Origin: Poseidonibacter parvus
GTDB lineage: Bacteria > Campylobacterota > Campylobacteria > Campylobacterales > Arcobacteraceae
NCBI RefSeq assembly: GCF_001956695.1
Contig: NZ_CP019070.1
Span: 1,178,001 to 1,242,000, forward strand
Reading direction: 5' to 3'
Length of the DNA stretch: 64,000 nucleotides
Shown: positions 34,537 to 42,278 of the stretch, piece after piece
Numbering within the stretch: position 1 is the first letter of the stretch
Layout: each line of letters opens with the position of its first letter
Translations under genes and position numbers: made by a program
Notes under the pieces: generated by a model
The model's input: the letters and a program-made list of their open reading frames with translations, nothing else
The model's database searches: none
Told to the model about the DNA's origin: nothing

Positions 34537-35430
34537 ATGATTTATAGTTTAGAAAATAGTGAAATAAAAATTGAAGTAAATAGCTTTGGAGCTGAACTTA
34601 AAAGCTTAGTGTTATTAGAAGATAAGCTTGAGTATTTATGGCAGGGAAATCCTGATTTCTGGAATAGAAGCTCACCTGTATTATTTCCAATTGTTGGAAA
34701 ACTATTAGATAATACTTATACTTTTAATAATAAACAATATTCAATGTCTCAGCACGGTTTTGCAAGAGATAAAGAGTTTTTACTTGTAAAGCAAAATAAA
34801 AACTCTTTAAAGTTTTTATTAAAAAGTGATGATAAAAGTTTCGAAATCTATCCTTTTTCTTTTGAGTTATATATTAGCTATGAAATTAAGGACAAAAAAC
34901 TAAAAGTATCTTATGATGTTTTAAATAAATCAGAAGACAAAATGTACTTCTCAATTGGCGCTCATCCAGCTTTTAATTGGCCTCTAACACAAGATAAAAA
35001 TGATTGCCAAGAAGATTATTACTTTGAGTTTGAAGCTTTAGAAGATGATACTTTACAAAGATTACCATTATTAGAAAATGGAATTTCATCTAAAAAAGAA
35101 GATGTAATAATAGAAAATAAAAAACTAGCAATTTCAAAAAACACTTTTACAAAAGATGCTTTGATTTTCAAAACAGAAAGTAAAACTAATAAGCTAAATA
35201 CAATAAAACTAAAAAATAGTAAAAATGATAAATTTATACAAATGGATTTTGAAGGCTTTTCACATTTAGGACTTTGGTCAAAACCAAGTGGTGCACCTTT
35301 TGTTTGTATTGAACCTTGGCATGGAATTGCTGATTTTATTGAACATAATCAAAAACTTGAAGATAAAGAAGGAATAATCAAACTAGAAAAAGATGATACT
35401 TTTTCTAGTTCTTATTTTATTAGTATTTAA
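34537..35430 (+). CDS. Aldose 1-epimerase family protein
   Basis: The 297-residue protein belongs to the galactose mutarotase-like superfamily: EYLWQGNPDFWNRSSPVLFPIVGKL, SQHGFARDKEF, a catalytic-type His in IGAHPAFNWPL and the late FVCIEPWHGIADF. It resembles the LacX/YeaD side of the family, which interconverts sugar anomers or sugar phosphates. The substrate is unknown. It sits three bases after the helicase gene and converges with the Nramp-like gene. Confidence 0.85.
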   Translation: MIYSLENSEIKIEVNSFGAELKSLVLLEDKLEYLWQGNPDFWNRSSPVLFPIVGKLLDNTYTFNNKQYSMSQHGFARDKEFLLVKQNKNSLKFLLKSDDKSFEIYPFSFELYISYEIKDKKLKVSYDVLNKSEDKMYFSIGAHPAFNWPLTQDKNDCQEDYYFEFEALEDDTLQRLPLLENGISSKKEDVIIENKKLAISKNTFTKDALIFKTESKTNKLNTIKLKNSKNDKFIQMDFEGFSHLGLWSKPSGAPFVCIEPWHGIADFIEHNQKLEDKEGIIKLEKDDTFSSSYFISI

Positions 35431-35432
35431 TT

Positions 35433-36641
35433 TTAAAAAAATATAAAATAAACTACTACCATTGAAGCTAAGTATATTAAACCTAAAAGAGCTAATAGTG
35501 TAAGCCAAGTAGGTTTTTCATACTGCTTTGATAAACTATAATTTAAATATGCAAATACAGGTGCTGAAATAAATGAAGCTGTCATTGCAAATGGTATCAT
35601 TTTCCCAATTGAACTGCTGAAAAATTGTATTACAATAAATGCAACACTAGTTGTAAAAAGCATAGAGTATTGTAAGGCTTTATGTGAAAAAACTTGGGCA
35701 GTTTTATCTTTTAATAAAACAATACTTTGATGATTACATCTAGAATATCCATCAACAGCAACAATAGTAGTTCCATATAAACAAATAAAAGCTATAAAAG
35801 TAATAAAGCCTCTTGTCCACTCTCCAATACTAGTAGCATACATATCAATAAATTGATTGATAAACTTTCCACCACTTAATGGCGTTATATCTTGTCCATA
35901 TTGAACTAATGCACCCAAAGACATAAACATCAAAGCTAAAACAATAGTTATTAAATAACTGCTATTAAAATCAATCAGTCTTCTTCTCTTATACTCAGGA
36001 TTTAATTTGTTTTTCTCAACAACCCAAATAGAAGCAGAAACACTAAGCTCCATAGGTGAGGGCATCCAACCCATAAGTGCTATTAAAAAAGGAATTGCTG
36101 CTATTTGAAATGCATTTGGTTCTATAAAATCAACTTTTGCTTGCATATTTGTTTGAGTAAAGGCTAAAATTAAAGCTATGATAGTCACTACACTTAAAAA
36201 TAGCATAATGATTTTAGAAACACTATCTAAGGCTTTATATTGTTTATAATAAAGTATAAACAAATATGTAAGAAGTATAAATATACTATAAACTTGCAGT
36301 GATAAATCAAGTGGTATTAGCATTTTTAATAAAACTGCACTAAGTAGTGTTCCACCTGCAACATTCACAACTGTAGCAAAGGCATTAAAAACTAGAAAAA
36401 CCCATAAATAAGCATTTCCTTTTTCACTATAACCTTGAAGTAAAGTTTTATTATGAATAGTACTATAATCAAAAGCAAATCTATAAAATGGGTATTTTAA
36501 TAAATTTACTACAATAATAAATAAAGCTAATTGATATCCATAATAAGCTCCCGCTTGTGTAGAAGCAATAATATGCGATCCCCCAACAGCTGACGAAGCC
36601 ATAATAATCCCAGGCCCAAAATTCTTTAAAAATTCTTTCAC
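35433..36641 (-). CDS. Divergent Nramp-family transporter, last gene of thiamine operon
   Basis: The 402-residue protein has about 11 membrane helices and Nramp-like spacing (GPGIIMASSAVGGSHIIASTQAGAYYG at the start, WMPSPMELSVSASIW in the middle). The canonical metal-binding motifs are absent: TM1 has VGGSH where DPGN is expected, and TM6 has MPSPME instead of MPHN. It is thus unlikely to carry Mn/Fe in the standard way. It begins ten bases after thiE in the TPP-riboswitch operon, so a role in thiamine-related uptake is plausible. This is inference; divergent metal transport remains possible. Confidence 0.75.
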   Translation of the reverse strand: MKEFLKNFGPGIIMASSAVGGSHIIASTQAGAYYGYQLALFIIVVNLLKYPFYRFAFDYSTIHNKTLLQGYSEKGNAYLWVFLVFNAFATVVNVAGGTLLSAVLLKMLIPLDLSLQVYSIFILLTYLFILYYKQYKALDSVSKIIMLFLSVVTIIALILAFTQTNMQAKVDFIEPNAFQIAAIPFLIALMGWMPSPMELSVSASIWVVEKNKLNPEYKRRRLIDFNSSYLITIVLALMFMSLGALVQYGQDITPLSGGKFINQFIDMYATSIGEWTRGFITFIAFICLYGTTIVAVDGYSRCNHQSIVLLKDKTAQVFSHKALQYSMLFTTSVAFIVIQFFSSSIGKMIPFAMTASFISAPVFAYLNYSLSKQYEKPTWLTLLALLGLIYLASMVVVYFIFF

Positions 36642-36651
36642 TTTATACCTT

Positions 36652-37308
36652 TTAGTTTTTTAAATTATGTATAGTTTTTTCCATATCTTTTGATTTTGTA
36701 ATAGCAGAAATTATTGCAAGACCATTACAACCACATTCCAAAATATTCTTTGCATGTGCTTCTTGTATTCCTCCAATTGCAACTAAAGGCTTTTTGATAT
36801 TTTGTTTTCTAATATCTTTGATTAAATCTAGTCCAACACTTGGTTTTGCATCGCTTTTAGAGTTTGTTTTATATATAGGTCCTACTCCAAAATAATCAAT
36901 ACCTTCAATATCTTTAGCCTGAAGTGCTTGTTCTAAATTATTTATAGAAAGTCCTAGTAAAAGTTTTCCTTGTATTTGTTTTACAACTTCACATACCTCT
37001 TTGTCATCTTGACCTATGTGAATACCGTCAGCTTTTAATTTTAAAGCTAGGTCTATATTATCATTTATAAAAAAAGGTACATTATATCTTTTACAAAGAG
37101 TTTGAGCTTTTTTAGCTAGTTCAAAAATCTCTCTTTCATTTTGTAAACAGTTTTTACCTTTTTCTCTAAATTGAAAACAAGTAATACCATTCTTTAAAGC
37201 TTCTTCTAAAATATAAAGTAAATTTTCTTGTGCAGAATTTTCTAAGTGAAGACAATCCTGTGTTCCTGCTATAAAATAAACGCCAAGCATTTCTTTAACA
37301 TTAAACAT
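36652..37308 (-). CDS. thiE: Thiamine-phosphate synthase
   Basis: ThiE joins HMP-pyrophosphate and HET-phosphate (thiazole) to thiamine phosphate. The 218-residue sequence shows the TIM-barrel landmarks FQFREKG, FFINDNIDLALKLKADGIHIGQDD, LLGLSINNLEQA, FGVGPIYKTNSKSDA and VAIGGI. It overlaps thiD by eight bases and continues the riboswitch-controlled minus-strand operon. Confidence 0.95.
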   Translation of the reverse strand: MFNVKEMLGVYFIAGTQDCLHLENSAQENLLYILEEALKNGITCFQFREKGKNCLQNEREIFELAKKAQTLCKRYNVPFFINDNIDLALKLKADGIHIGQDDKEVCEVVKQIQGKLLLGLSINNLEQALQAKDIEGIDYFGVGPIYKTNSKSDAKPSVGLDLIKDIRKQNIKKPLVAIGGIQEAHAKNILECGCNGLAIISAITKSKDMEKTIHNLKN

Positions 37309-38119
37309 TTTTATCCTTTAAAGAGTATGCCCAATGATTTGTAGGTCCATGTCCTGAGCCTATATTTAAAGGATTACTAATAGCTGCACTTATAAAATCT
37401 TTTGCTAAGACTATACTTTCTTTAATACTATTTCCCTTTGCAAGTTGTGCTGTTATACAAGCACTAAAAGTACAACCCGTACCATGTGTTTGAACTGTAT
37501 CAAATCTTACAGCGCTTAGCGTAAACTCTTCATCTTGCGTAAATACCCAATCTTCACAAATTTCACTTGTGCTATTATCTGTATGTCCACCTTTTATGAT
37601 TACTATTTTTGCTCCCATTTCTTGAAGTTTTAAAGCGGCTTTTCTTGCACTTTGTTTGTCGTTTATATCAATATTTGTTAAGGCTTTTGCTTCAGGTAAA
37701 TTTGGAGTTATTATGTCACAAAGAGGAATCAACTCTTCTTTTAAAGCTTTTGTTGCATTTTCTTGTAAAAGTGCAACTCCACCTTTTGATATCATCACTG
37801 GGTCTAATACAAAATATCCAAAGTCATACTTCTTAATACAGTTTGCAACACAAGTTATAACTTCTTGACTTCCTAGCATTCCTACTTTAAAAGCTTTAAT
37901 ATCAAAATCATCAGCAATTGCTTTTAGTTGGGATTGTATAGTTTCTAAAGGAATTTGATGAATATCAAATACACCTGTTGTATTTTGAGCTGTTATTGCT
38001 GTAATTGCAGTTGTTCCAAAAACACCTCTTTCTTGAAAGGTTTTTAAATCTGCTTGAATTCCAGCACCACCACCACTATCTGAACCTGCTATACTTAAAG
38101 CTTGTGCTACTTTACTCAT
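37301..38119 (-). CDS. thiD: Hydroxymethylpyrimidine/phosphomethylpyrimidine kinase
   Basis: ThiD phosphorylates HMP twice to HMP-PP. The 272-residue ribokinase-fold enzyme has SIAGSDSGGGAGIQADLKTF at the N-terminus, AITAQNTTGV, the substrate loop LDPVMISKGG and the catalytic anion-hole motif HGTGCTFSACI. It overlaps thiE and lies 29 bases after thiM. Together with ThiM and TenA it supports salvage of thiamine pieces rather than full synthesis. Confidence 0.95.
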   Translation of the reverse strand: MSKVAQALSIAGSDSGGGAGIQADLKTFQERGVFGTTAITAITAQNTTGVFDIHQIPLETIQSQLKAIADDFDIKAFKVGMLGSQEVITCVANCIKKYDFGYFVLDPVMISKGGVALLQENATKALKEELIPLCDIITPNLPEAKALTNIDINDKQSARKAALKLQEMGAKIVIIKGGHTDNSTSEICEDWVFTQDEEFTLSAVRFDTVQTHGTGCTFSACITAQLAKGNSIKESIVLAKDFISAAISNPLNIGSGHGPTNHWAYSLKDKNV

Positions 38120-38148: not shown

Positions 38149-38943
38149 TTATTCAAAACTTATTTTTGCGTATTTTTCTACTGTGGTATCATCTAATTTT
38201 GCTAGACTATCAAGTAAGGCTATATAAAACTGTCCTGTTTGATTATCATTTAGTTGTTCTTTTACAATTTGTCCTGCAATTGCGTAAGAAGTACAAGCAC
38301 TTACAGTTAGTTCAAAACTATTTTCTCCAAGTGTTAAAAATGCTCCACAAACTGCACTTAAAAGACATCCTGAACCTGTGATTTTTGGGAATAGTGTTGT
38401 TCCATTATCTATTTTTGCTACTTTAAGTCCATCACTTATATAATCAATCTCTCCACTAATTGAGACAATACAATCATATTTTAAAGCTACATCTTTTGCT
38501 ATTTGTGAAAAGTTGGCTTCTCCACTTCCTGCATCAACGCCTTTTGCCTTCCAATTAACTTGGGCAAGATGTGCTATTTCTCCTGCATTTCCTCTTATTA
38601 AATCAAACTTTATTTCTTTTAATAAAGTCTGTACAGTTTGTTTTCTAAAAGAAGTAGCTCCTACACCAACTGGGTCTAAGACTACTGGTATATTGTTTTT
38701 ATTTGCACTTTTCCCTGCTTTTATCATAGACTTTACTTGCTCTGATGTAAGTGTTCCTATGTTTATAACTAAAGCTTGACAAATAGCAGGTAGTTCGTCC
38801 ATTTCTTCAATTGCATTTGACATAATAGGTGAACAACCCATACTTAATAAACCATTTGCTACATAATTTGCTACAACTATATTTGTAATATTATGTATTA
38901 AAGGACTATTTTGTCTTAATCTTTTTATATTATCTGTTTGCAT
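38149..38943 (-). CDS. thiM: Hydroxyethylthiazole kinase
   Basis: ThiM phosphorylates salvaged thiazole (HET). The 264-residue protein contains SPLIHNITNIVVANYVANGL, GCSPIMSNAIEEM, LDPVGVGATSFR, IRGNAGEIAHLA and the catalytic ITGSGCLLSAVCGAF. Length and motifs are normal. It lies between the ThiY-like gene and thiD in the same operon. Confidence 0.95.
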   Translation of the reverse strand: MQTDNIKRLRQNSPLIHNITNIVVANYVANGLLSMGCSPIMSNAIEEMDELPAICQALVINIGTLTSEQVKSMIKAGKSANKNNIPVVLDPVGVGATSFRKQTVQTLLKEIKFDLIRGNAGEIAHLAQVNWKAKGVDAGSGEANFSQIAKDVALKYDCIVSISGEIDYISDGLKVAKIDNGTTLFPKITGSGCLLSAVCGAFLTLGENSFELTVSACTSYAIAGQIVKEQLNDNQTGQFYIALLDSLAKLDDTTVEKYAKISFE

Positions 38944-38953
38944 TATTTAGCCT

Positions 38954-39901
38954 TTATTTTAATAACTCTTTTGCGTAATCATCTAAGTTTGGAATAGTTT
39001 TAATAAGCTTGTTTTCTTTCATAAATGTAGCCATTTTTTTATATACAACTTTATCGAAAACAGCTGGATTTTGTGCTAAATATGGTATTGTATCATTCCA
39101 TGCAAGAGTATTTAATTTATTATTTAACTCTTTTGGTTTATAACTTACAAATGATTCCCAAGATTTTTTAGGATTTTCTTTTAAGTATTTTGTAGCTTCT
39201 TGTAAAGCTTTTACAAAGTTTTTATATTTTTCTTGCGACACAGTTTCTTTATTTGCTACAACTACAAGCTCATCATATTTTGGAACACCATAATTTTCAG
39301 GGAAAAATGCTACTCCTTCTTCTTTTTCTATTTTTAATTGATTTAATTCAAAGTTTCTAAAAGCACCTATTACTGCATCAACTTGTTTACTCATTAAAGA
39401 TGGAGATAAAGACCAGTTTACATTTATAAGTTCAACATCTTTTGCTGATAAATTTACAGATTTTAACATAGAATCTAAAAGTGCTGTTTCAAATCCACTT
39501 ACAGAGTATCCTACTTTCTTACCTTTTAAATCTTCTATGTTTTTTATACCACTGTCTTTTAATACAACTAAGCTATTAAGAGGTGAGTTTACAAGAGTAG
39601 CAATTCTAACTAATGGTAAACCTTGTGCTACTTGCATTTGTAGTTGTGGTTGGTAATCAACTGCTAAATCAGCTTTTTTTGCAGCTACAAGTTTTGGTGG
39701 CATTGATGGATCAGCTGGTTCAATAATTTCTACTTCTAAATTATTCTTTTCAAAAAAACCTTCTTGTTGTGCAATTATAATAGCTGCATGGTCAGGATTT
39801 ACAAACCAGTCTAAAAGCAAACTTACTTTTTCTTTGTCTGCAAATGCACTTGAACTTAATAGTAATAAACCTAGTGTTATTTTTGATATTATTTTTTTCA
39901 T
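38954..39901 (-). CDS. thiY: ThiY-like (NMT1/THI5 family) periplasmic binding protein
   Basis: The protein binds a pyrimidine thiamine precursor for the ThiXYZ-type transporter, judged from family and context. I place the start at the ATG at 39901, which has an AAGGAAA ribosome site and gives a signal peptide (KITLGLLLLSSSAFA). The open frame extends upstream to 39958. The mature part begins VSLLLDWFVNPDHAAIIIAQ, typical of NMT1 proteins, followed by KADLAVDYQPQ and GYSVSGFETALLD. It is 315 residues from this start. The matching permease and ATPase lie upstream at 40804-42278. Confidence 0.88.
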   Translation of the reverse strand: MKKIISKITLGLLLLSSSAFADKEKVSLLLDWFVNPDHAAIIIAQQEGFFEKNNLEVEIIEPADPSMPPKLVAAKKADLAVDYQPQLQMQVAQGLPLVRIATLVNSPLNSLVVLKDSGIKNIEDLKGKKVGYSVSGFETALLDSMLKSVNLSAKDVELINVNWSLSPSLMSKQVDAVIGAFRNFELNQLKIEKEEGVAFFPENYGVPKYDELVVVANKETVSQEKYKNFVKALQEATKYLKENPKKSWESFVSYKPKELNNKLNTLAWNDTIPYLAQNPAVFDKVVYKKMATFMKENKLIKTIPNLDDYAKELLK

Positions 39902-39930
39902 TTTATTTAATTTCCTTATGTTTTTTATAT

Positions 39931-40584
39931 TTATGATAGGTCTAAACCCATTTGCCAAAATGATATTTCCATTCTTGTTGCTGTTGTAAAAATATCTTCT
40001 ATTTTTTCCATTTGTTTTTGTGATAAATCTTCACACAGTTTTTCAAAAAAACTTGTTGCTTCTTTTGCTGCTTCTTGATACTCTTTTGAAGAGTACATAT
40101 CTATCCAAGATTGATATGGATTATTTTGCACACTTAGATTGTTAGAAGTTATATAATCAGCTACTTTTGCATAACCTACAAAACAAGGTATTAAACCTGC
40201 ATAAAGTTGTGTTAAATCTCCATTTAATCCACAATCTAGTACAAACCTTGTGTAAGCTATACAAGCCGTTGATTCTTTTTGTTCATAAATTGATTTTTCA
40301 TCAATTCCAAACTCCTTACAATAACTTATATGAAGTTGTATCTCATCTAGTATTGAATTTAAAGCTTGTCTTGAGAATTCCATTTGTTCAAAAGTATCAC
40401 TTTTATACATAGCAAGTGCAAAAGCACGGCTATAATGAAATAAATAAATATAATCTTGCATTAAATAGTGTTGAAAGTTTTTAAGCTCTAATGTTCCAGA
40501 AGCTAATTTTTGAACAAATTCATGTTTAATATAATCATCCCAATAGGGTTGAGATTTCTTGATAAGATTTTGTGTAATAGTCAT
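39931..40584 (-). CDS. tenA: TenA-family thiaminase II
   Basis: TenA hydrolyses aminopyrimidine breakdown products of thiamine so that HMP can be reused. The 217-residue helical protein starts QNLIKKSQPYWDDYIKHEFV, has the nucleophile Cys region GLIPCFVGYAKVAD and the late catalytic Glu in RMEISFWQMG. It is the first gene after the TPP riboswitch, with ribosome site AAGGAG seven bases before the ATG. Confidence 0.92.
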   Translation of the reverse strand: MTITQNLIKKSQPYWDDYIKHEFVQKLASGTLELKNFQHYLMQDYIYLFHYSRAFALAMYKSDTFEQMEFSRQALNSILDEIQLHISYCKEFGIDEKSIYEQKESTACIAYTRFVLDCGLNGDLTQLYAGLIPCFVGYAKVADYITSNNLSVQNNPYQSWIDMYSSKEYQEAAKEATSFFEKLCEDLSQKQMEKIEDIFTTATRMEISFWQMGLDLS

Positions 40585-40618: not shown

Positions 40619-40680
40619 GAGTTTATCTTTAAAAAAAGATAAAAAAATTGAAGTATAAAAATACATTTGTAAAAAACAAA

Positions 40681-40758
40681 TCCCTACGTTAGCATTACCT
40701 AAATCAGGTTCAAAGGTCGAAGTTTTAAACTCCCTCTCAGCCTATTTATAAGCTCCCT
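40681..40758 (-). ncRNA. TPP riboswitch (THI element)
   Basis: The minus strand contains the hallmark THI-box segments in order: AGGGAGC at the 5' end, GGCTGAGAGGGAG, GACCTTTGAACCTGATTT, and GGTAATGCTAACGTAGGGA at the 3' end. These form the P1, pyrimidine-sensor and pyrophosphate-sensor helices of the TPP aptamer. It lies 97 bases before tenA and should repress the salvage operon when thiamine pyrophosphate is abundant. The upstream permease and ATPase genes are not under it. Confidence 0.95.
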
Positions 40759-40773
40759 ATGTATTAAAGCAAA

Positions 40774-40803: not shown

Positions 40804-41550
40804 TTAATGTAAATGACTAGCCCATGGAATAAATTTCTTTGTAAGATAATCTGTTAGAAAATAGATACTTAAAGTAAGTATTATTAATATAAAAAGTGCA
40901 GAAAACATTAAATCAATTTGCATTCGTGCATTTGCATGTAACATTAAATATCCAAGTCCTTTAGATGAACCAACCCATTCGCCAATAACCGCTCCAATAG
41001 GTGCTATACAAACTGCTATTTTAAGCCCTGAAGCTAATGAGGGTAAACTAGCTTTAAATCGTACTTTAAACAAAGTTTGTAAAGGTGTTAGCTTATATGT
41101 ATGAGCTAAGTCAAGCCACTGTTTTGGTGTGTTTTTAAGTCCATCATAACAAGCACTTGTAATTGGAAAATATATAATAATAACTGTCATAACTATTTTT
41201 GAAGCTAAGCCATAACCAAACCATAAAACTAAAAGTGGAGCTATTGCAAATACAGGAATAGCTTGAGAAATTACAAGTATTGGAAGTAAGTATTTTTCAA
41301 TTTTTTTAAAGTATAGTAGGGCAAAAGCAGAGCTTAGACCAAAGAAACATCCAAGGATTATTCCTAGTATTATTTCTAAAAGTGTAGTTTGTGTATGTTC
41401 TAAAAGTAAGTCATATTGATTTATTAATTGTAAAAATACATCTTTTGGTTGCGGTAACATATAATGAGGTAAATCAAAAATTATAATAAGAGCTTGCCAA
41501 AGTCCTAATAAAAAAATAGTAGGAAGTAATATTTTAAAAAGCTTTTTCAT
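40804..41550 (-). CDS. thiX: ABC transporter permease, ThiX-like
   Basis: The 248-residue BPD_transp_1-type permease has about six helices and the ATPase-coupling loop (EAA motif) around LAHTYKLTPLQTLFKVRFKASLPSL. It belongs to the SsuC/TauC/ThiX group. Its start overlaps the ATPase gene. Both lie just before the thiamine salvage genes that include the NMT1-type binding protein, so pyrimidine-precursor uptake is the likely job. It ends 46 bases before the riboswitch. Confidence 0.87.
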   Translation of the reverse strand: MKKLFKILLPTIFLLGLWQALIIIFDLPHYMLPQPKDVFLQLINQYDLLLEHTQTTLLEIILGIILGCFFGLSSAFALLYFKKIEKYLLPILVISQAIPVFAIAPLLVLWFGYGLASKIVMTVIIIYFPITSACYDGLKNTPKQWLDLAHTYKLTPLQTLFKVRFKASLPSLASGLKIAVCIAPIGAVIGEWVGSSKGLGYLMLHANARMQIDLMFSALFILIILTLSIYFLTDYLTKKFIPWASHLH

Positions 41551-42278
41551 AGATTACTTTCTTTTAATTTTGAGATTAACTCTTCTTGTAAATTCCAGAG
41601 CTTTTCATTTGAAAGTTGATGAGGTAAATTACCTTCTAAACTTGCCACTTCTTTTATGCTTACTGGTTGATTTTCTAAAATATAAATATGATTTGCTAGT
41701 TTTATTGCTTCTTGTGGATCGTGTGTTACTAATACAACGGTTTTATCTTTTAATAAATCGCAAGTTAAATCTTGAAGTTGTATTTTTGTAATTGCATCTA
41801 AAGCTGAAAAGGGTTCATCCATTAAAATTAGATTTGAATCTTGCATAAGTGTTCTAGCTAAGGCTACTCTTTGTTTTTGTCCACCTGAAAGTTCATAAGT
41901 TTTTTTATCTAAATGTTTAGACATATTTACTTGGTCCAAAATCTCTTTTGCTTTTTGTAGAGTCTTTTTTGTTTTACATCCTTTTAAATGATAAAAAAGT
42001 TGTACATTATCTAAAATACTAAGCCATGGATAAAGTGAATTTTCTTGACTAAGCCAAGCTATATTTGTATTTTCTTTAAGTGTAATTTCTCCACTTGTTA
42101 TAGTTTCTCTTTCAAGATTTGCAATACATCTAAGAAGTGTTGATTTTCCAACTCCTGAACTTCCTAATAAAGCTGTATTTTTATTTTCTAATATATTAAA
42201 GTTAAGATTTTTAAATAGAGATTTACCTTTGAAATCAAGGTTTAGGTTTTGTATTTGGGCTATGAAATTATTATTCAT
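41547..42278 (-). CDS. thiZ: ABC transporter ATPase, ThiZ-like
   Basis: The 243-residue ATPase has Walker A GSSGVGKST, signature LSGGQKQRVALARTL, Walker B LILMDEPFSALD and a switch His (VLVTHDP). It matches the SsuB/TauB/ThiZ group. The stop overlaps the permease start (ATGA). It powers import with the ThiX-like permease and ThiY-like protein. This two-gene unit sits upstream of the riboswitch and probably has its own promoter. Confidence 0.88.
   Translation of the reverse strand: MNNNFIAQIQNLNLDFKGKSLFKNLNFNILENKNTALLGSSGVGKSTLLRCIANLERETITSGEITLKENTNIAWLSQENSLYPWLSILDNVQLFYHLKGCKTKKTLQKAKEILDQVNMSKHLDKKTYELSGGQKQRVALARTLMQDSNLILMDEPFSALDAITKIQLQDLTCDLLKDKTVVLVTHDPQEAIKLANHIYILENQPVSIKEVASLEGNLPHQLSNEKLWNLQEELISKLKESNL

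Follow-up and report, generated by a model that had tools for sequence, protein, structure and literature searches.

The Nramp-like protein encoded at positions 35433-36641 on the minus strand of the window, by which we mean the whole stretch of 64,000 nucleotides of the Poseidonibacter parvus genome analysed here, was given the working name NRL. Its gene closes a thiamine operon with a TPP riboswitch, it belongs to a clade linked to thiamine genes in two phyla, and it has lost the metal-site residues of the Nramps. The substrate of NRL is probably some thiamine precursor or thiamine itself, and the best explanation found, to which we give a probability of roughly 0.55, is that NRL is a secondary importer of hydroxyethylthiazole (HET), the thiazole half of vitamin B1.

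The first-pass annotation of the window had an Nramp-like gene closing a TPP-riboswitch operon ten bases after thiE, and this was confirmed by the ORF coordinates, the convergent neighbour and the match to RF00059. Along the minus strand the gene order is thiZ, thiX, TPP aptamer, tenA, thiY, thiM, thiD, thiE and NRL (Table 1), with the aptamer inside the gene row and not at the operon head. ThiM, ThiE, ThiXYZ and TenA have established roles in the thiamine salvage pathway. The ten bases between thiE and the GTG start of NRL are 36642-36651, and the downstream neighbour of NRL (34537-35430, plus strand) is convergent and ends 2 bases away, which makes NRL the last gene of the operon. The thiY-like ORF as listed overlaps tenA, and its start may be placed too far upstream. 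One TPP aptamer and three tRNAs were the only RNA families above gathering score in the window, and the same scan found no M-box riboswitch there. A scan for promoters and terminators did no better than shuffles (40 versus 40.3 and 3 versus 2.3). The window genome is a single contig of 2.87 Mb, and its close relatives are recorded as Arcobacter sp. or uncultured Campylobacterales.

Table 1. Features of the thiamine operon in the window, with the evidence for each assignment.
Feature	Position	Strand	Evidence
NRL, Nramp-like transporter, proposed HET (thiazole) importer	35433..36641	-	ORF, 402 aa, GTG start
thiE, thiamine phosphate synthase	36652..37308	-	TIGR00693 213.8 bits, cut-off 145.1
thiD, HMP/HMP-P kinase	37301..38119	-	TIGR00097 345.4 bits, cut-off 204.95
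thiM, hydroxyethylthiazole kinase	38149..38943	-	TIGR00694 315.5 bits, cut-off 256.4
thiY-like substrate-binding protein (NMT1/THI5-like), pyrimidine side	38954..39958	-	PF09084 245.5 bits; ThiY name by context
tenA, thiaminase II / aminopyrimidine salvage	39931..40584	-	TIGR04306 167.3 bits, cut-off 130
TPP riboswitch aptamer, between thiX and tenA	40664..40769	-	RF00059 66.8 bits, gathering 54.3
thiX-like ABC permease	40804..41550	-	PF00528 120 bits; name by context
thiZ-like ABC ATPase	41547..42278	-	PF00005 105.5 bits; name by context

Searched as a single sequence, NRL matched no Pfam family and no PDB chain at E≤1, and its score against the NCBIfam model NF037982 (Nramp_1) was 43.8 bits, under the cut-off of 50. 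A family profile built from 41 NRL relatives was searched against the PDB chains, with matches listed at E≤10. Nine of the ten PDB sequences matched were Nramps or NRAT (E 0.001-0.0075), and PF01566 was matched at E≤1 by 30 of the 41 family members, the window NRL itself not being among them. By profile comparison, the sequence likeness of the family to the Nramps can be called weak but specific. The AlphaFold model of NRL (pLDDT 86.8, pTM 0.86) aligned with DraNramp (6d91) at a Foldseek TM of 0.72, and DraNramp was the best match by VIA (Z 37.2, rmsd 3.3 over 369 residues); amino acid carriers of the LeuT fold came next after the Nramps (Z about 27-32). The predicted fold is that of Nramp/LeuT, the top matches by both Foldseek and VIA being Nramps, and the description of NRL as Nramp-like is upheld by the profile match together with a predicted structure closest to DraNramp.

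NRL keeps the Nramp fold yet fails the Nramp metal-site test. D56, N59 and M230 of the Nramps have roles in metal binding. In the alignment of the 41-member profile, DPGN in TM1 of the Nramps aligned with G20-G21-S22-H23 of NRL, and M230-P231-H232 in TM6 of DraNramp paired, without gaps, with S195-P196-M197. The metal-site D, N, Met and His are in this way replaced by G, H, S and M; most relatives carry A-P-I where the window NRL has S195-P196-M197. Equivalent metal-binding residues are named for another Nramp in a passage of PMC10606218. The earlier reading of DPGN as VGGSH and MPHN as MPSPME was correct in that both motifs are lost, but its TM6 register, with M193-P194, is two residues off the profile alignment; the MPH triplet is absent on either register. 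TM6 is broken at 193-197 in the model and TM1 is unbroken, the latter a point against the importer reading given below. H23, W192 and E198, near the former metal site, are invariant or nearly so among the 41 family members and are candidates for contact with HET.

A scan of contigs for NRL relatives gave at least 80 loci. The neighbour screen listed 99 loci, with flanks of 1.5 kb for those from the genome search and up to 10 kb for those from the contig scan, and ThiZ matches below 40% identity were left out of it. All 16 listed loci with an NRL above 60% identity, from 11 genomes, had thi genes adjoining, namely thiM, or thiD and thiE where a short locus stops before thiM. None of the 80 listed loci with relatives at 47% identity or less adjoined a thiamine gene, and three of the 99 had no long NRL match. 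Conservation of the thiamine adjacency had been named as a point to check, and within the clade, at 63% identity or more, it is kept in two phyla. The survey of thiamine versus metal genes among the neighbours, also proposed earlier, gave thiamine genes in the clade and, by eye and uncounted, no metal operons. Neighbour clusters of the relatives, whose representatives were judged by eye from the first 60 residues, displayed mostly species-level synteny besides the thi genes. The phylogeny within the Nramp relatives was made as a tree of 61 family proteins, including every second paralog of the contig scan, and here one branch, with 100/100 support, sets the 15 thiamine-linked rows apart from the rest. 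A tree rooted with an outgroup showed branches of length 10, and the root was not taken from it.

The motif loss extends well beyond this clade. By sequence comparison, both GGSH and the PxP motif, the latter mostly as PAPI in TM6, recur in relatives of 38-47% identity from Pasteurellaceae, Neisseria, Pseudoalteromonas, Rheinheimera, Streptococcus, Moraxella and Aliarcobacter-type genomes. The loss of the metal motifs is older than the link to thiamine; as most members of the wide family that has it are not found near thiamine genes, it does not by itself point to thiamine transport. The idea that it marks a thiamine function was for this reason rejected.

NRL was present in six of the ten genomes compared from the Arcobacter-like genus of the window genome, hereafter g1. 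In the Pasteurellaceae, a protein search gave an NRL-family match in 106 of 140 genomes, and ten of the 140 had a copy at 64-68% identity. The other full-length copies in this family were 43-48% identical, with nothing between the two sets (fragments, 41-61%). The sets are separated by 20 positions, and the clade-specific positions include S17 for A, Y36 for W, G97 for V, M197 for I and L199 for I. A plasmid search for NRL returned 15 records, all of them below 60% identity, and no thiamine genes were annotated in the six plasmid regions viewed, two of which are without any annotation.

Some arrangements of the wider family were also recorded. Spirabiliibacterium mucosae carries three NRL relatives in tandem (L050:8481-12715) and S. 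falconis two (L035). In G151 and G332 (L013, L015) the relative overlaps the end of a response-regulator-like gene, itself located after a histidine-kinase-like gene, an arrangement common to these two genomes and unlike the thi operon. The 1.9 Mb contig called Pseudomonas stutzeri NCTC11607 (L036) has an NRL relative that groups tightly with Haemophilus, and the N. gonorrhoeae "plasmid" record NZ_CP119140.1 (L217) is of chromosome size, 2.17 Mb; both are likely label errors.

ThiM was present in all 16 genomes with an NRL of the clade (NRL-positive genomes). Full ThiM matches occurred in six of six NRL-positive and none of four NRL-negative g1 genomes, although two of the latter are only 85-86% complete, and in the Pasteurellaceae ThiM was found in 10/10 NRL-positive genomes versus 85/130 others (95/140 overall; Fisher p 0.03). 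NRL lies inside the thi operon in all six NRL-positive g1 genomes, and in nine of the ten Pasteurellaceae it follows thiE directly, at most 6 kb from thiM. The clade loci are thiMDE or thiXYZ-tenA operons. In the Pasteurellaceae genome G469 the operon reads TPP-thiZ-X-tenA-Y-Y-NRL and thiMDE forms a separate TPP operon; in G425 (Avibacterium) and G459 the operon is thiMDE-NRL, with neither thiXYZ nor tenA in it; and in G002, of g1, the order is thiZ-X-[TPP]-thiY-thiM-NRL, with thiD, thiE and tenA absent from the operon. NRL thus stays with thiamine genes through these rearrangements, chiefly with thiM, though not with it alone. TPP aptamers were located on the NRL operons of the window, G001, G002, G003, G006, G424-G427, G428 (as L027), G459, G467, G468, G469 and G481; the sole exception among the NRL operons examined was L021 (G004), on a contig of 6.4 kb. 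The aptamer is located between thiX and tenA in G003 and G006 as in the window, between thiX and thiY in G002, and before thiZ in several Pasteurellaceae (L027, L203, L206, L207, L208).

Between the window and Testudinibacter, identity is 52-69% for the thi proteins all along the operon and 66% for NRL; ThiM of the Aliarcobacter-type G018 is 39% identical to the window ThiM. These identities suggest that the whole operon, with NRL, was transferred between the phyla in one piece. With the operon moved as a unit, the two phyla are not two independent confirmations, and the independent events are few.

ThiU (HI_0418), from the thiamine gene cluster of H. influenzae, is a predicted HET transporter according to a passage of PMC10588857, and ThiU and ThiW are entered as HET transporters in a table of PMC6593275. 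The operon of H. parainfluenzae (L133) reads TPP-thiZ-X-Y-tenA-M-D-E-MFS, and the MFS gene, ThiU-like by its position, occupies the place of NRL. A ThiU-like gene adjoined thiM in none of the ten NRL-positive Pasteurellaceae and in 40 of the 85 others with ThiM (Fisher p 0.0045, kinship ignored). In a tree of ThiD and ThiE, built from 36 of the 37 rows with ThiE (one short row was dropped) and without ThiU operons of the 57-62% group, NRL operons of the Avibacterium/Gallibacterium type were sister to ThiU operons. This placement suggests one exchange of NRL and ThiU, perhaps a few, and because the genomes are kin, the count of adjacent ThiU is weaker than its p-value. The typed ThiU-like list was confined to complete matches of at least 57% identity; one of those excluded is a broken ThiU-like gene next to thiM in G531. 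The count of any ThiU-like MFS (57/85 versus 0/10, Fisher p 5e-5) was dropped as proof because many of the matches lie away from thiM and ThiU has a paralog, YhjE, mentioned in PMC10588857. Neither NRL nor an intact adjoining ThiU-like gene was present in 45 of the 95 Pasteurellaceae with ThiM, which counts against the HET reading. ThiU and NRL are alike in position, each closing, behind thiE, a TPP operon that is otherwise homologous. They differ in that ThiU is a major facilitator, from another superfamily (TIGR00883), and no sequence relation was seen; with ThiW, NRL would share the proposed substrate, HET.

In G437 and G515 (L209:7656-10577, L210:6224-9022), an NRL relative of 44-46% identity adjoins an MFS gene whose product is 59% identical to ThiU. 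These pairs are divergent or convergent and lie outside thiamine operons, the MFS possibly being of the YhjE type, and coordinates suggest the same pair in G435, G436, G438, G440 and G441.

The needs of the hosts differed between the two groups. Of the 140 Pasteurellaceae, five gave a ThiG match, and none of these is NRL-positive; four hosts gave partial matches (about 32 bits, some 55 residues), too short for ThiG. Three of the ten have ThiC and could thus make the pyrimidine themselves, whereas the ThiG route to the thiazole is closed to them. In the NRL-positive g1 genomes, by contrast, a full ThiG match was present in 5/6 (the sixth, G004, is 88% complete) and ThiC also in 5/6, so that HET import is not essential there and NRL would serve salvage. 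A strong match to ThiB, the thiamine-binding protein of ThiBPQ, occurred in all six g1 and nine of the ten Pasteurellaceae NRL-positive genomes (15/16; the exception is G469), which indicates that thiamine uptake is already provided. At L211, ThiB, ThiP and ThiQ adjoin the thi operon, thiB being over its cut-off, thiP at 394.0 versus 395.1 and thiQ at 208.5 versus 245.05. This thiBPQ set is convergent to NRL in G006 (L211:11771-15042) and, by the ThiB coordinates, close by in G003 and G004; in the window genome the ThiB match lies elsewhere (C1:798503). The usual host has a pyrimidine supply, thiamine import, a HET kinase and, in the Pasteurellaceae, no ThiG, and the piece missing would therefore be a HET importer.

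The function of NRL may be depicted as follows. It would be a secondary active importer of the Nramp/LeuT fold, with a central site that no longer coordinates metal, and would take up HET from outside. ThiM would phosphorylate the imported HET, ThiE would join the product to the pyrimidine (HMP-PP), and plentiful TPP would shut the operon, NRL included, through the riboswitch. HET is preferred because the operon holds pyrimidine uptake (ThiXYZ, with TenA, by context) and ThiM and no other HET transporter, because of the co-occurrence with ThiM, the position near thiM and the exchange with ThiU, and because the NRL-positive Pasteurellaceae are without ThiG and have thiamine uptake covered by ThiB. 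The fold, the metal-site loss, the TPP-riboswitch operon, the clade, the ThiM co-occurrence and the occupation of the ThiU slot were all computed; import direction, ion coupling and substrate are what we infer. The earlier proposal of a changed substrate, perhaps a part of thiamine, gains from the altered substrate-site residues and from thiamine adjacency in two phyla, and the choice of HET goes a step further than these.

The layout of G469, where NRL comes after a pair of thiY genes with thiZ-X-tenA and stands apart from thiMDE, would fit a pyrimidine or thiamine substrate as well. A pyrimidine carrier (of HMP, aminopyrimidine or a formylated form), acting as a second, low-affinity route beside ThiXYZ, would also suit the thiY-thiM-NRL row of G002, but ThiXYZ already covers pyrimidine uptake in most NRL operons, the operons of G425 and G459 are without thiXYZ or tenA, and NRL goes with ThiM in every NRL-positive genome; this substrate is considered improbable. 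Import of thiamine itself, to which a similarly low probability is given, agrees with the TPP-riboswitch control and with NRL in G469, the one host without a strong ThiB match. Against it stand the ThiB matches of the 15 other genomes and the fact that a thiamine importer would need no ThiM, with which NRL co-occurs.

That NRL still carries a divalent metal, for example Mg or Mn for thiamine enzymes, through another coordination sphere is very unlikely. The fold of the model would allow it; YcsG, a distant relative by fold, is reported as an Mn importer in PMC10448178, and NrmT as carrying Mg in PMC4072509. The replaced D, N, Met and His and the absence of an M-box from the window speak against a metal, and a need for metal would leave both the restriction to genomes with ThiM and the exchange with ThiU unaccounted for. 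It is somewhat easier to imagine, though still unlikely, that NRL carries or exports a compound loosely tied to thiamine, such as oxidised thiazole, cysteine, glycine or 5-oxoproline. The broader family occurs in unrelated neighbourhoods, so that its general substrate may be an ordinary metabolite, and PxpT is such a use of an Nramp-like fold according to PMC13274462. The thiamine clade, however, is strictly tied to TPP operons and ThiM, and the pxpA loci of G490, G432 and G425 have a PxpT-like gene of their own; the protein search with NRL in the Pasteurellaceae gave no match at the PxpT places of G425 and G490. In the window genome pxpA (C1:1098562-1101659) is accompanied by TRAP-like genes, and 5-oxoproline therefore probably enters by a route other than NRL. 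Two pxpA genes occur in the window genome, and by eye one of them is accompanied, in the region L228 (C1:1093000-1107000), by pxpB- and pxpC-like genes after TRAP-transporter-like genes.

With the SLC11/Nramp proteins (MntH, PF01566; DraNramp), NRL shares the fold and a weak profile match, and differs in its replaced metal-site residues, its score below the NF037982 cut-off and its lack of a Pfam match. PxpT, as described in PMC13274462, is 50% identical to YcsG, is placed with NRAMP in TCDB and is needed for growth on 5-oxoproline, and an organic substrate is argued for it. YcsG is reported as the Mn importer MntG in PMC10448178, so that, between these two sources, the substrate of YcsG is disputed. 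The Nramp-like fold is common to NRL and these proteins (NRL model versus YcsG model 9a52_A, Z 30.9 by VIA), whereas PxpT sits with pxpABC and the NRL clade in thi operons; the idea that NRL is simply YcsG/PxpT was rejected on this difference of gene context, although they may still belong to one sequence clade. In Pasteurellaceae and Neisseria forms of PxpT, TM1 reads AIGPGFLTQ, and the YcsG chain 9a52 was not among the PDB matches of the NRL family profile at E≤10 (hmmsearch). NrmT, an Nramp relative whose new substrate, Mg, was found through its M-box riboswitch (PMC4072509), resembles NRL in lying outside Slc11, in being controlled by a riboswitch and in having a changed substrate, which for NRL is proposed; it differs in having Mg and the M-box where NRL has the TPP riboswitch and thiamine genes. 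By analogy, NrmT is the nearest precedent of logic and PxpT the nearest for an organic substrate. Searches of an open-access literature library showed no Nramp-type carrier of thiamine or thiazole.

Vitamin B1 salvage has a gap at the uptake of HET. The known carriers are predictions, and in one survey (PMC6593275) ThiW was found in only 64% of HET auxotrophs; the NRL clade gives a candidate. The odds are judged slightly in favour of the wider reading that a clade of the Nramp fold went from metals to a vitamin precursor, a heterocyclic organic substrate, and replaces ThiU in homologous operons as a missing HET importer, its sister family being carriers of organic solutes. That sister family, in Pasteurellaceae, Neisseria, Pseudoalteromonas, Rheinheimera and Streptococcus, matches only the label of divalent metal transporter. 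The case also touches the question of how this fold shifts between metal and organic substrates, the point disputed for YcsG/PxpT, and for the NRL family the NF037982 name "Nramp family divalent metal transporter" may be misleading.
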